DNA of 23,925 bases from a virus: positions 1-23,925 of the IMG/VR virus record IMGVR_UViG_3300031857_001381. One strand, given 5' to 3'. Every line of letters starts with the position of its first letter. The first letter of the stretch is position 1. Position numbers and translations under genes: made by a program. Under the pieces are notes generated by a model. The model was not told where the DNA came from, did not search any database, and saw only the letters and a program-made list of their open reading frames with translations. Positions 18,717 to 22,726 of the stretch are shown in pieces.

Positions 18717-19184
18717 ATGCCCACCAACCCCACCCCTATCACCGCGCTGCCCACCGCGCCCAGCCGCGCGGACCCGGCCAACTTTGCCACCCGCGCGGAT
18801 GCTTTCCTCGGCCAGCTTGGCACCTTCGGCACGCAGACCAATGCGGTGGGCTCAACCACCTACACCAACGCCGTGGAGGCCGCTGCCAGCGCCAATGCGG
18901 CCCAGGCTGACCGCATCTTGGCGCAAAGCGCCGCCGCTACCGTCACGGCGCAGAGCCCAGCGGCCAACGCCGCCGCCGCCGCCGCCAGTGCCGCCGCAGC
19001 AGCCGTGAGTGCTGGCCAGGCGCAGGCCGTCAGCCCTGATTCGCCCGTGCGCCTGAACACCCGGCAGATCACCGCCAACCTCACCATCGGCGGCGGCTAC
19101 AACGCCATGAGCGCCGGGCCCATCGCCATCGCCGACGGCATCACCGTCACCGTCCAAGACTTCGCCACCTGGAGCATCCAATGA
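18717..19184 (+). CDS. Ala-rich tail fibre-like protein
   Basis: A 155-residue protein. The N-terminal ITALPTAPSRADPANFATRA is a pattern common at the start of phage tail fibres that dock to the tail. Residues about 55-100 are an Ala-rich heptad-like stretch suited to a trimeric coiled coil. The C-terminus has NLTIGGGYNAMSAGPIAIAD and VTVQDFATWSIQ, a short beta cap. Its stop overlaps the ATG of the DGR variable protein (ATGA at 19181), so the two are translated together. It may be the stalk on which the variable tip is mounted (inference). Confidence 0.65.
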   Translation: MPTNPTPITALPTAPSRADPANFATRADAFLGQLGTFGTQTNAVGSTTYTNAVEAAASANAAQADRILAQSAAATVTAQSPAANAAAAAASAAAAAVSAGQAQAVSPDSPVRLNTRQITANLTIGGGYNAMSAGPIAIADGITVTVQDFATWSIQ

Positions 19185-20527
19185 GCACGCTTGTCACCCG
19201 CACCATCCAGACCCCTGACGCCTCGCCCGTCAGCTTCCCCAACGGCATCCGCATCGGCACGTCCGGCGGCGCCGGCCTGGTCAACCACATTGGCGTGGCC
19301 GGCCAGCAGGGGTTCGGCGTGGGCATCGCGCCCGAGGTGCCGGCAGGCTTTGCCAAGCTGTACGGCACCGAAGATCCGGCCTCCGAGAACTACGGTAACT
19401 ACCAGTACAGCGACGGCTCGGTGATGGTCTACGTGCCGGCGTTTTACTACCGCTACGGCACCGGCAGCAACGGCGGCGCCATCAACGTTGTGGACGTCAA
19501 GCCCTTCAGCCACTGGGCCAGTGTGGCCGATGCCAATGCGGCGGGCTACGCGCTGCACCGCGCCTTCTACAACGGCGGCAGCATCCGCCAGGGCGTTTTC
19601 GTCGACAAGTACAAGGCGAGCAACAACGGCGGCACGGCGTCCTCCTTGAAGAACGGCATTGCGCTCAGCAGCGCGCAGCGCGGCTCCTTGAGCACCGCCA
19701 CCTTCGCCAGCCTCACGGGCGCACCCAGCAACAACCTGGCCGGCGCCATTGCCGCGGCCAAGACGCGCGGCAGCCGCTTCTTCTGCAACACGCGCTTCAT
19801 CCGCGGCGCGCTGGCCTTGCTGGCCAATGCCCACGGCTCGGCCGCCACGGGCACCACCTATTGCGCCTGGTACAGCGCGGGCAGCACCAACTTCCCCAAG
19901 GGCTGCAACAACAACGCCAACGGCGACGCGAATGACGGCGCCATCGCGTTTGTGGACGACGGCAACGGCACGTACAACTGCGGGCGCACCGGCAGCGCCA
20001 ACTTCATGGCGCGCACCACGCACAACGGCCAGATGTGCGGTGTGGCCGACTTGAACGGCATCGTGTGGGAAACCGAGCTGGGCTTCACCAGCAACGGCAC
20101 CAGTTTCTTCATGCTCAACACCAGCGTGGACGTGGCCACCATCACCGGCGGCACCACCCTGGCCACCGACGCCTGGGGCGCCACCGGCCTGGCCGCCATG
20201 TACACCAACATCGGCGCCACGTATGAAAGCCTGACCAACAGCGCCAGCAACAAGACCTACGGCAACGCGGCGCAGGTGCTGAGTGCATCCACCAGCGGCA
20301 CCGCCTGGGGCTTTGCAGGCCTGGGCATTCCGCTGTCTGGCGGCGTGGGCGGCAGTAACCAGTTCGGCAACGACTACCTGTACGACGCGCGCCCGAATGA
20401 GCTCTGTGTGATGTCTGGCGGCGACTGGAACTTCGGCAGCAGTGCCGGGGTCTGGGCGCTGTCCCTGGGCAACGTCCGCGGCGTCTCGAGCGTCAGCATC
20501 GGGTTCCGCGCCGCCTCTTACCTGTAA
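19181..20527 (+). CDS. DGR variable protein (C-type lectin-like tail protein)
   Basis: A 448-residue protein, presumed receptor-binding tip of the tail. The N-terminal 100 residues (MSTLVTRTIQTPDASPVSFP) are probably a tail-docking region. Later parts have the composition of C-type-lectin/formylglycine-generating-enzyme-like folds: YVPAFYYRYGTGSN, HRAFYNGGSIRQGVFVDKY, CGVADLNGIVWETELG. The C-terminus reads ELCVMSGGDWNFGSSAGVWA to IGFRAASYL, and the WxxG, GVWAL and GFR elements are typical DGR target signatures. Residues 408 to 446 are encoded by the VR. Compared with the template, residues 415, 418, 421, 428, 430, 432, 435, 437, 438, 439 and 445 are changed through adenine substitutions. The ATG overlaps the previous stop, with TGGAG upstream. 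Confidence 0.92.
   Translation: MSTLVTRTIQTPDASPVSFPNGIRIGTSGGAGLVNHIGVAGQQGFGVGIAPEVPAGFAKLYGTEDPASENYGNYQYSDGSVMVYVPAFYYRYGTGSNGGAINVVDVKPFSHWASVADANAAGYALHRAFYNGGSIRQGVFVDKYKASNNGGTASSLKNGIALSSAQRGSLSTATFASLTGAPSNNLAGAIAAAKTRGSRFFCNTRFIRGALALLANAHGSAATGTTYCAWYSAGSTNFPKGCNNNANGDANDGAIAFVDDGNGTYNCGRTGSANFMARTTHNGQMCGVADLNGIVWETELGFTSNGTSFFMLNTSVDVATITGGTTLATDAWGATGLAAMYTNIGATYESLTNSASNKTYGNAAQVLSASTSGTAWGFAGLGIPLSGGVGGSNQFGNDYLYDARPNELCVMSGGDWNFGSSAGVWALSLGNVRGVSSVSIGFRAASYL
20401..20519 (+). repeat. DGR variable repeat (VR)
   Basis: A 119-bp segment ending 8 bp before the end of the variable-protein gene. It aligns without gaps to 21061-21179. Sixteen positions differ: 15 lie opposite template adenines (7 to G, 6 to T, 2 to C) and one opposite a template T (20413 G versus 21073 T). 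The invariant 3' block atcgggttccgcgcc is the likely initiation-of-homology region. Confidence 0.96.
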
Positions 20528-20532
20528 CTCTG

Positions 20533-20559
20533 AGGCCCTGAGCGGTAGCGACTGGGCCT
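20533..20559 (+). repeat. Inverted repeat downstream of VR
   Basis: A 6-bp perfect inverted repeat, aggccc (20533-20538) and gggcct (20554-20559), with a 15-nt loop, lies 13 bp after the VR end between the variable-protein stop and avd. DGR targets often carry a hairpin or cruciform just past the VR that aids retrohoming. This one has a shorter stem and larger loop than the classic form, so the equivalence is uncertain. Confidence 0.35.
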
Positions 20560-20571
20560 GCTTCCAACACC

Positions 20572-21057
20572 ATGAGCCACCCCACGTGCAGCATCCATGC
20601 CCAGGCCGGCTTGCACCGCAAGCTGGTGCTGTTCGGCACGCAGCTGGAGCTGTACCTGGCGCACTTTCCTTCGCATCACAAGTTTGTGATGGCGCAGCAA
20701 CTGCGCCAGGCTTACGTGGACGTTTACAACTTGGTCACCGAGGCGCAAAAGCGCTTTCACAAGCGCACCACGCTCACTCAGCTGGACGTGCGCCACGAGC
20801 AGCTGCGCATGCTGCTGCTCTTGGCGCATGAGCTGGGGTTGTTCAACTTCTCCAGGGGCAAGCAAGACGCCGAACACCCGGGCGACCACCGGGCGCTGGT
20901 GATGCTGCGCCTGGTGGACGAGCTCGGCCGCATGATCGGCGGCTGGCTCCAAAAAGAATCGGCCCCGGGCGGTGACGCTCAGGGCCCGCTGCCTGCGCCC
21001 GGCGCAGCAGCGCATGAATCCGGTGAGCGAGAGCTTGCCGGTGCGGTAGGGGCTTGA
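20572..21057 (+). CDS. avd: DGR accessory variability determinant (Avd)
   Basis: A 161-residue basic, helical protein. Residues about 10-125 give a four-helix pattern typical of bAvd: HRKLVLFGTQLELYLAHFPS, then KFVMAQQLRQAYVDVYNLV, LDVRHEQLRMLLLLAHELGL and DHRALVMLRLVDELGRMIGG. In BPP-1, Avd forms a pentamer that binds the RT and template RNA and is required for mutagenic reverse transcription. The last 35 residues are low-complexity Pro/Ala/Gly/Glu, making the protein longer than BPP-1 Avd (about 128 residues). The stop codon ends 3 bp before the TR begins. Identity is clear from sequence character and position. Confidence 0.88.
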   Translation: MSHPTCSIHAQAGLHRKLVLFGTQLELYLAHFPSHHKFVMAQQLRQAYVDVYNLVTEAQKRFHKRTTLTQLDVRHEQLRMLLLLAHELGLFNFSRGKQDAEHPGDHRALVMLRLVDELGRMIGGWLQKESAPGGDAQGPLPAPGAAAHESGERELAGAVGA

Positions 21058-21060
21058 CAT

Positions 21061-21179
21061 GCTCTGTGTGATTTCTGGCGGCAACTGGAACAACGGCAGC
21101 AATGCCGGGGTCTGGGCGCTGAACCTGAACAACGACCGCGGCAACTCGAACGACAACATCGGGTTCCGCGCCGACTCTT
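21061..21179 (+). ncRNA. DGR template repeat (TR) and template RNA core
   Basis: A 119-bp template for the VR, lying between avd and the RT gene. It contains 26 adenines, 18 of them in nine AAC codons when read in the VR frame, the usual DGR design. All adenine-bearing codons end in C or T, so no adenine mutation can create a stop codon. A chance open frame runs across it, but the segment is non-coding in function. The template RNA probably extends into avd and toward the RT gene. Confidence 0.95.
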
Positions 21180-21348
21180 CGCCTGGCCTGCCTCATGCGG
21201 CAACAGCCGACTGGCAAAGAGGGAGCCCCCGTCGCGGCTGGTGCCGAAATCTGCCGCTGCAGCGCCCTTCAGTAGCCCGCACGCCGGCCCATGTTGGCCG
21301 CAGGGCGACCACTGGCGCCGCAGCACCTACACCTGGCCAGGGCACCGC
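21180..21348 (+). ncRNA. Spacer between TR and RT, probable 3' part of the template RNA
   Basis: A 169-bp stretch with no supported gene. In the BPP-1 DGR the RNA downstream of the TR folds and binds the RT-Avd complex to prime cDNA synthesis, and the same role is inferred here. The RT frame is open upstream to an ATG at 21241, but those 36 codons do not resemble an RT N-terminus. AGGG at 21339-21342 is the likely ribosome-binding site for the RT. Confidence 0.5.
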
Positions 21349-22353
21349 ATGAAGCGCCACGGCAACCTGCTGCCCCTGTACGCCACCGAGCCCGCGCTCA
21401 TGGCCGCCTACCGCCGCGCCCGCGAGCAAAAACGCAACAGCCGGGGCTGCTTCCTGTTCGAGCGCAACCTGGGCCACAACCTGGCCAGCCTGCTGGACGA
21501 GCTGCGCACCGGCACCTACCAGCCGCAGCCGCTCAATCGCTTCTGGGTCAACGACGGCCGCAAGCCGCGCTTGATCGAGGCGCCGTCCTTCCGTGACCTG
21601 GTGGCGCAGCACGCCGTCTACGCCGTGGTGGGCCCGATCTTTGAGCGCCGCTACATCGCCACCAGCTTTGCCTGCCGCAACGGCCTGGGCACGCACGCCG
21701 CAGCCGATTGGCTGCAAGCCGCCATGCGCCGCGCACCGCGCACCGCCTGGACGCTGCACGTCGATGTGCGCAAGTTCTTCTACAGCGTGGACCGCACCAC
21801 GCTGGCCGCCATCGTGCAGCGCTTCATCAAGTGCCCCGCCACCCTGCGCCTGCTGGCCCTGTTTGCCCAGCGCCCTGAGCCGGTGGGCATCCCCATCGGC
21901 AACCTGATGAGCCAGACCTTTGCCAACCTGTACCTGCACACGCTGGACGACTTTGCCAAGCGCACGCTCAAGGCGGCCGACTATGGCCGCTACATGGACG
22001 ACGCCGTGATGATCGCCCCCAGCCGGGCCGCAGGCGCACAGTGGCTGGAGGCCATCCGCCACCACCTCAGCCTGCTGGGCCTGGCCATCAGCCACCACAG
22101 CCTGCAGCCCCTGCGCCGTGGCCTCAACTGGGTGGGCTACCGCACCTGGGCGCGCGCCCGCTTCGTGCGCCCGCACCTTATTTCAGCCATCCGCGCCGAT
22201 GCCCGCACCGGCCGCCTGCAATGCCTTGTCTCTCGCCTGGGCCACGCGCGCCGCACCAGCTCGCACCGGCCCCTCATCACCCACCTGTTGGAGCACCACC
22301 ATGCCCTCGCTGCACGCCTACCGCAAGCTCATCACCTCCCTCAACACGTTTGA
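21349..22353 (+). CDS. DGR reverse transcriptase
   Basis: A 334-residue RNA-dependent DNA polymerase that copies the TR RNA with adenine-directed errors. ATG 21349 gives MKRHGNLLPLYATEPALMAA, the usual DGR-RT N-terminus. Motifs in order are RKPRLIEAPSFRDLVAQHAV (RT1-2), DVRKFFYSVD (motif A, Asp139), GIPIGNLMSQTFANLYLHTL with the DGR-type SQ at 188-189, YGRYMDD (motif C, Asp217 and Asp218), LGLAIS (motif D) and LNWVGYR (motif E). No endonuclease, maturase or protease domain is present, as expected for DGR enzymes. All catalytic residues are intact. Its 3' end overlaps the next gene by 53 bp. Confidence 0.96.
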   Translation: MKRHGNLLPLYATEPALMAAYRRAREQKRNSRGCFLFERNLGHNLASLLDELRTGTYQPQPLNRFWVNDGRKPRLIEAPSFRDLVAQHAVYAVVGPIFERRYIATSFACRNGLGTHAAADWLQAAMRRAPRTAWTLHVDVRKFFYSVDRTTLAAIVQRFIKCPATLRLLALFAQRPEPVGIPIGNLMSQTFANLYLHTLDDFAKRTLKAADYGRYMDDAVMIAPSRAAGAQWLEAIRHHLSLLGLAISHHSLQPLRRGLNWVGYRTWARARFVRPHLISAIRADARTGRLQCLVSRLGHARRTSSHRPLITHLLEHHHALAARLPQAHHLPQHV

Positions 22354-22726
22354 GATCCGCCTGCCTGAATCCGCCCCCGGCCAACGCCAGGGCCAGGAAA
22401 TCGCCACGTTGGCCGACGGCCGCACCATCGTCTGCCTGGACGACGGCGCCACGCTGCCAGCCGACCAGCCCGCGCAGATCGCCGCCAGCATCGAGGCCCT
22501 GCCCAGCCCGCTGCCCGTAGACCTGCGCGCCGAGATCCTGGCCGCCAGCCCGCACGTGCGCGTCATCAACCAGCGCGTGGTCGAGAAGATCCGCGCCCAG
22601 TACAGCATGGACGACGAGATCAAGATGCTGCGTATCGCCCCCAGTGCAGAAACCGTGGCCTGGAACGACCACGTGGAAGCCTGCCGCGCCTGGGGCAGGG
22701 CTGAAAAGGCCAAGCTGGGGTTGTGA
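22301..22726 (+). CDS. Small phage protein of unknown function, overlapping RT
   Basis: A 141-residue protein starting MPSLHAYRKLITSLNTFEIR with GGAG upstream; an upstream in-frame ATG at 22118 would place 61 implausible residues over RT coding sequence. The N-terminal half is beta-like (EIATLADGRTIVCLDDGATL) and the C-terminal half helical (VINQRVVEKIRAQYSMDDEI, then WNDHVEACRAWGRAEKAKLG). The ending resembles small proteins found at the end of phage tail modules, possibly tail-fibre assembly helpers; I cannot name the family. It starts inside the RT gene, so it shares its transcript. Confidence 0.7.
   Translation: MPSLHAYRKLITSLNTFEIRLPESAPGQRQGQEIATLADGRTIVCLDDGATLPADQPAQIAASIEALPSPLPVDLRAEILAASPHVRVINQRVVEKIRAQYSMDDEIKMLRIAPSAETVAWNDHVEACRAWGRAEKAKLGL

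Follow-up and report, generated by a model that had tools for sequence, protein, structure and literature searches.

A BPP-1-type diversity-generating retroelement in the tail module of an uncultured phage, with adenine-confined variation among its relatives

The tail module of the phage fragment IMGVR_UViG_3300031857_001381 raises the question whether it carries a working diversity-generating retroelement (DGR) and, if so, which protein is diversified. The window, which is the whole IMG/VR phage fragment of 23,925 bases, almost certainly encodes a complete, functional DGR of the BPP-1 type; the phage is tailed and probably infects Burkholderiales. All its components are located on the plus strand: the gene for the target (variable) protein of 448 amino acids (19181-20527), with the variable repeat (VR) of 119 nucleotides (nt) at its 3' end (20401-20519); a hairpin 3' of the VR (20533-20559); avd, the accessory variability determinant, of 161 amino acids (20572-21057); the template repeat (TR) of 119 nt (21061-21179); a structured spacer RNA (21181-21324); and the gene for a DGR reverse transcriptase (RT) of 334 amino acids (21349-22353). 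The initial annotation had described a complete DGR in BPP-1 order, in one orientation and undisrupted, and all four of its parts were indeed found intact; the spacer RNA, the 3' hairpin and the C-type lectin fold of the target are added here. A search for relatives of the RT yielded 25 IMG/VR loci (59-100% RT identity), 24 of which hold a VR and were compared together with the window, giving 25 loci.

The VR and the TR of the window are mismatched at 16 of 119 aligned positions, 15 of them at TR adenines (26 adenines in 119 nt; hypergeometric p 2.7e-11). The only other difference, T to G at 20413, lies near the 5' edge of the VR. The TR adenines are restricted to codon positions 1 and 2 of the VR reading frame (13 and 13), mostly in AAC codons, and by the genetic code mutation of AAC at these positions can not create a stop codon. 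The last TR adenine (21174, in a GAC codon) is matched by a C in the VR (20514) in 25 of the 25 loci; since a random product would not be fixed, this difference is best read as distinguishing the initiation of mutagenic homing (IMH) element from its TR counterpart, IMH*, and 14 candidate mutagenic positions therefore remain. The 3' end of the VR (20499-20519) is GC-rich and conserved among close relatives, with this one fixed A/C difference from the TR end in all 25 loci, and would act as IMH, the TR end being the putative IMH*. No further VR was found in the window by a search tolerating mismatches at A.

Over the 25 loci, 375 of 381 VR-TR differences fall on TR adenines, which extends to the relatives the earlier statement that VR and TR differ almost only at template adenines. 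Among nearly identical phages this contrast is marked. Loci L007 and L009 show 1 difference in 1220 target positions outside the VR, 11 in 486 positions of avd and 0 in 1005 positions of the RT gene, but 14 of the 26 adenine sites of their VRs are different, against 0 of the 93 remaining VR sites and no site of the TR. Similarly, L004 and L005 show 2 differences in 761 target positions, none in avd and 3 in 1005 of the RT gene, but their VRs differ at 17 of the 26 adenine sites and at none of the 93 others, and their TRs not at all. Throughout the group L004-L010, members differ from each other at 11-19 of the 26 VR adenine sites and at 0 of the 93 non-adenine sites, and among nine close loci no TR adenine differs in any pairwise comparison. 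The non-adenine positions of the VR mostly follow the TR of their own clade (for instance C or T at TR position 65). This pattern, with a variable VR and a constant TR, argues for unidirectional transfer. Adenine-confined VR variation among related strains, the check proposed in the initial annotation, was thus observed, and the claim of recent mutagenic retrohoming gains support from near-identical relatives that differ in the VR at TR-adenine sites only. Because near-identical phages from other metagenomes carry different target gene ends, we infer that this DGR works in nature.

The mutation spectrum can be read from the same comparison. Among TR adenines away from the edges, 58% are changed in the VR (31% to G, 16% to T and 11% to C), and A-to-C changes are more frequent before a TR C (41 of 134 changed sites) than before an A (14 of 144; p 2e-5). 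When the BPP-1 system is reconstituted, the nucleotide misincorporated most is dC, and the misincorporation of dG seen in certain contexts is explained by re-use of the neighbouring template C (PMC12875486); the direction of the A-to-C context effect is in line with that system.

The RT is 36% identical to BPP-1 Brt (329 columns), and its best match in the PDB is BPP-1 bRT (8ub7, 177 bits, versus 52 bits for group II RTs). In phylogenetic trees it groups with the RTs of BPP-1, Bise, VP58.5 and other DGRs, with support of 98/96 to 100/100 for the DGR clade, and stands apart from the outgroups, two group II RTs and one retron-like RT (a below-cut-off, long-branched sequence and the sole retron outgroup), so that the grouping with retrons or group II introns that would have spoken against a DGR, according to the initial annotation, was not seen. 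The YMDD and IGNLMSQ motifs reported earlier are both present, and all open reading frames (ORFs) of the element are open. A match to PHROG 1423 was discarded as a DGR-RT test, since group II RTs match this family too. The most probable start codon of the RT is ATG 21349, conserved in 29 loci, rather than GTG 21241, which falls inside the spacer RNA. The accessory protein is identified as Avd by a Pfam bAvd match of 47.4 bits (cut-off 40) and a match to PHROG 3206 (Avd).

The spacer between TR and RT is better conserved than the RT gene (5 of 172 versus 115 of 1005 positions differ, window versus L004). Its consensus fold, based on 18 aligned loci, pairs 95.5% of the cells, with compensatory changes in 17 of 37 pairs; 0 of 500 shuffles reached this level of covariation, and slid versions were at most 52% paired. 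The covariation points to a structured RNA, the likely counterpart of the BPP-1 spacer. In BPP-1 the RT-Avd complex is recruited by the spacer, within which an adenine serves as the primer of cDNA synthesis (introduction of PMC12875486); the same function, known only from BPP-1, is predicted for this phage.

Downstream of the VR, a GC-GNNA-GC motif is found at a distance of 18-29 nt in 25 of 25 VR-holding loci. Phage DGRs usually possess, at this place, a hairpin or cruciform with a GRNA loop and a GC-rich stem of 7-10 bp, which is not strictly required for homing (PMC3240598). The window hairpin (AGGCCC-TGA-GC-GGTA-GC-GAC-TGGGCCT) has a GGTA loop that fits GRNA and a fitting position, and its stem is built of 2 bp, a tandem G.A/A.G step (A opposite G and G opposite A beside the inner pairs) and outer arms (AGGCCC/GGGCCT) of at most 6 bp. 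The arrangement described by Guo et al. (PMC3240598), a paired stem with a GRNA loop, is also seen at about this position in the control DGRs, among them BPP-1, Bise, Ideonella and VP58.5. Loci L011-L017 have C-G and G-C at the positions of the G.A steps of the window, and because G.A steps are thus exchanged with Watson-Crick pairs in relatives, we infer that they form non-canonical pairs. Among 131 distinct stretches 3' of target-family genes, the G.A form occurs in 66 (13 with weak outer arms) and the Watson-Crick form in 21, compared to shuffle rates of about 0.1% and 0.3%, respectively; the inner pairs change together (GT-GATA-AC) while the GA steps persist. The G.A form is present in about half of this large family of targets, and phages whose VR is actively diversified are among its carriers, which may mean that shape rather than base pairs is read. 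Whether DGRs indeed use two interchangeable hairpin forms, a continuous Watson-Crick stem or a tandem G.A step (GA-NN-GNNA-NN-GA), with a machinery recognising shape, is in our judgement evenly balanced. A tandem G.A hairpin in DGRs was not found in the literature searched, whose coverage left most subscription papers outside. The exact motif TGAGCGNNAGCGAYTRGG was considered as a general DGR marker and rejected: 80 stretches carry it in the collection scan, and tblastn with the window and BPP-1 RTs gave an RT match in 23 only, all of them relatives of the window RT (at least 62% identity), and the remaining stretches showed no such RT.

What does the element diversify? An AlphaFold2 model of the target, built with 109 diverse relatives, reached a predicted local distance difference test (pLDDT) score of 92.9; a model based on 19 close sequences only was unusable (pLDDT 31). 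The first model matches the Thermus aquaticus variable protein TaqVP (5vf4; Z 33, root-mean-square deviation 3.2 over 304 residues), Mtd and TvpA (both Z 12) and formylglycine-generating enzymes (FGE; Z about 11). From these matches the target is predicted to be a variable protein with an FGE-type C-type lectin fold, with the VR at its C-terminal binding surface. Relatives of the target are encoded on about 380 IMG/VR contigs, and in most of the best 80, avd and RT follow the target gene if the contig extends far enough. In four relatives (L167, L169, L170 and L188) with VR-like C-termini, no avd, TR or RT was detected within the 1.6-3 kb downstream; their DGR may be located at another site, have diverged too far, or have been lost. 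More distant targets (L020 and its relatives L280-L359) carry an insert at profile positions of about 302-375, absent from the window, which resembles both 26dk_M, a phage structural protein, and a domain found in ubiquitin E1 enzymes.

The position of the target gene and the fold of its product suggest that this protein likely sets phage adsorption and is most likely the receptor-binding tip. An alternative is that the target is another exposed virion protein that does not bind a receptor, its diversification serving for example binding to surfaces or to other particles. This receives some room from the fact that the receptor role is deduced for an uncultured phage, with the tail tip assigned from gene position and fold. 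It appears improbable, given that the gene follows the tape measure and the tail genes and just precedes the lysis genes, like mtd in BPP-1, and that the fold is that of DGR variable proteins.

Several observations weigh against a complete and functional element. The avd product scores 56 bits with the NCBIfam Avd model, under its cut-off of 80, and it resembles BPP-1 Avd only very weakly in pairwise comparison. The stem of the window is not the continuous 7-10 bp stem of phage DGRs (PMC3240598), and the wider region, as single-stranded DNA, folds no better than shuffles (z 0.48; z -1.70 for the 41-nt core). Codon position and selection confound the effect of context on A-to-C changes. Finally, the window shares its exact VR with L002, the only record of 100% identity, and the activity of this exact contig is therefore deduced from its relatives. 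The shared VR would also fit a decayed or inactive DGR, whose parts are outwardly intact but whose VR has not been rewritten recently, the VR-TR differences being old. That such loss happens is indicated by L117 (4900-5680; same contig as L131), where the VR and the hairpin are kept, most of avd, the whole TR and most of the RT gene are gone, and the start of avd runs straight into the 3' end of the RT gene, by natural cassette loss leaving the VR or by an assembly error. In the window, however, all ORFs are open and the catalytic motifs are kept, and relatives with only 0-3 RT differences already differ at 11-19 of 26 VR adenine sites, which makes decay very unlikely and a functional DGR the preferred reading. 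Recombination does seem to occur within the module, as indicated by the mosaic relatedness of L007, L008 and L009 (avd and RT identical between L008 and L009 with 45 target differences, versus a near-identical target and 11 avd differences between L007 and L009; 44-45 target versus 0 RT differences among the three), but that the VR variation arose through ordinary recombination or through positively selected point mutations instead of retrohoming is hardly credible, since neither would restrict changes to the adenine positions of a separate repeat 660 nt away and the confinement to adenines already contradicts both.

This DGR adds a new member to an established system, widely surveyed in uncultivated phages, and is not a new kind; it belongs to the same class as the DGRs of uncultivated phages in Roux et al. 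2021 (PMC8144416), a survey that reports tail-protein targets and widespread viral DGR activity. Among the closest counterparts is the DGR of Bordetella phage BPP-1 (mtd-avd-TR-brt; NC_005357), which shares the gene order, the orientation, the position before the lysis genes, the VR at the target 3' end, the TR directly after avd, the spacer followed by the RT gene, the GRNA-loop hairpin 3' of the VR and, as given above, a related RT. In contrast, the window target is TaqVP-like over most of its length and not Mtd-like (Z 33 versus 12), the window Avd is barely alignable pairwise, and the BPP-1 hairpin has a Watson-Crick stem of 8 bp where the window stem is broken by the tandem G.A step. The Thermus aquaticus prophage DGR with TaqVP (5VF4, PMC6328139) is alike in target fold (304 residues at 3.2 Å), C-terminal VR and avd-TR organisation, and comes from another host and habitat, with a sequence identity of only about 23% over the structural alignment. 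Pseudomonas phage Bise (OR683401) carries the closest RT in annotated phages (43% identity), with a TR and a VR that differ mostly at adenines; its target was not found as a sequence relative, and its hairpin stem is Watson-Crick paired. An arrangement with two tandem avd-RT pairs beside an integrase gene, and one upstream target with VR, is found on a 709-kb plasmid record of Ideonella dechloratans (L034, 2382-5781).

The nearest RTs in GTDB genomes (61-65%) belong to Rhodoferax and Burkholderiales metagenome-assembled genomes, two of which also contain terminase relatives (45-46% identical), and the host is likely a member of the Burkholderiales. A DNA search with the whole window in annotated phages gave short, weak matches only, and an Rfam search gave no match above gathering scores. 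The left part of the window encodes terminase, head-tail joining, portal, major head and major tail proteins and the tape measure, followed by further tail-module genes, the DGR, an ORF without assigned function, a small ORF and an endolysin. The target gene, which has a PHROG tail protein match, had been called the last tail gene; this holds among recognisable genes, but the unmatched ORF 22301-22726, for which no family match was found in Pfam, NCBIfam or PHROGs, lies beyond the RT gene. This ORF overlaps the RT end by 53 nt, and the BPP-1 ORF bbp4 overlaps brt similarly; despite this, no similarity between the two ORFs was found.

By analogy with work on BPP-1, RT- and Avd-dependent mutagenic retrohoming is predicted in this phage, and the roles of RNA priming, cDNA transfer and the hairpin are taken from the same system. 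The avd-TR-spacer region would be transcribed, and the spacer RNA would recruit the RT-Avd complex; the RT would then copy the TR, misincorporating opposite template adenines, and the cDNA, directed by the IMH and by the hairpin that lies shortly after it, would take the place of the VR at the target gene's 3' end. The TR would remain unchanged and the cycle repeatable, the outcome being variation in the exposed binding surface of a tail protein with a C-type lectin fold.

With this locus and its relatives, environmental phages provide a natural and well-supported example of targeted hypermutation. Because sets of near-identical genomes differ almost only at VR adenine sites, metagenomes allow the replacement of probable receptor-binding alleles to be tracked directly. 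For cis elements that have so far been studied mainly in BPP-1, the covarying spacer RNA and the two forms of the hairpin provide sequence-defined, testable variants. The G.A form is a modest addition to known DGR biology; if the two forms are indeed interchangeable, the continuous near-loop pairing needed in BPP-1 would be no general requirement of DGRs.

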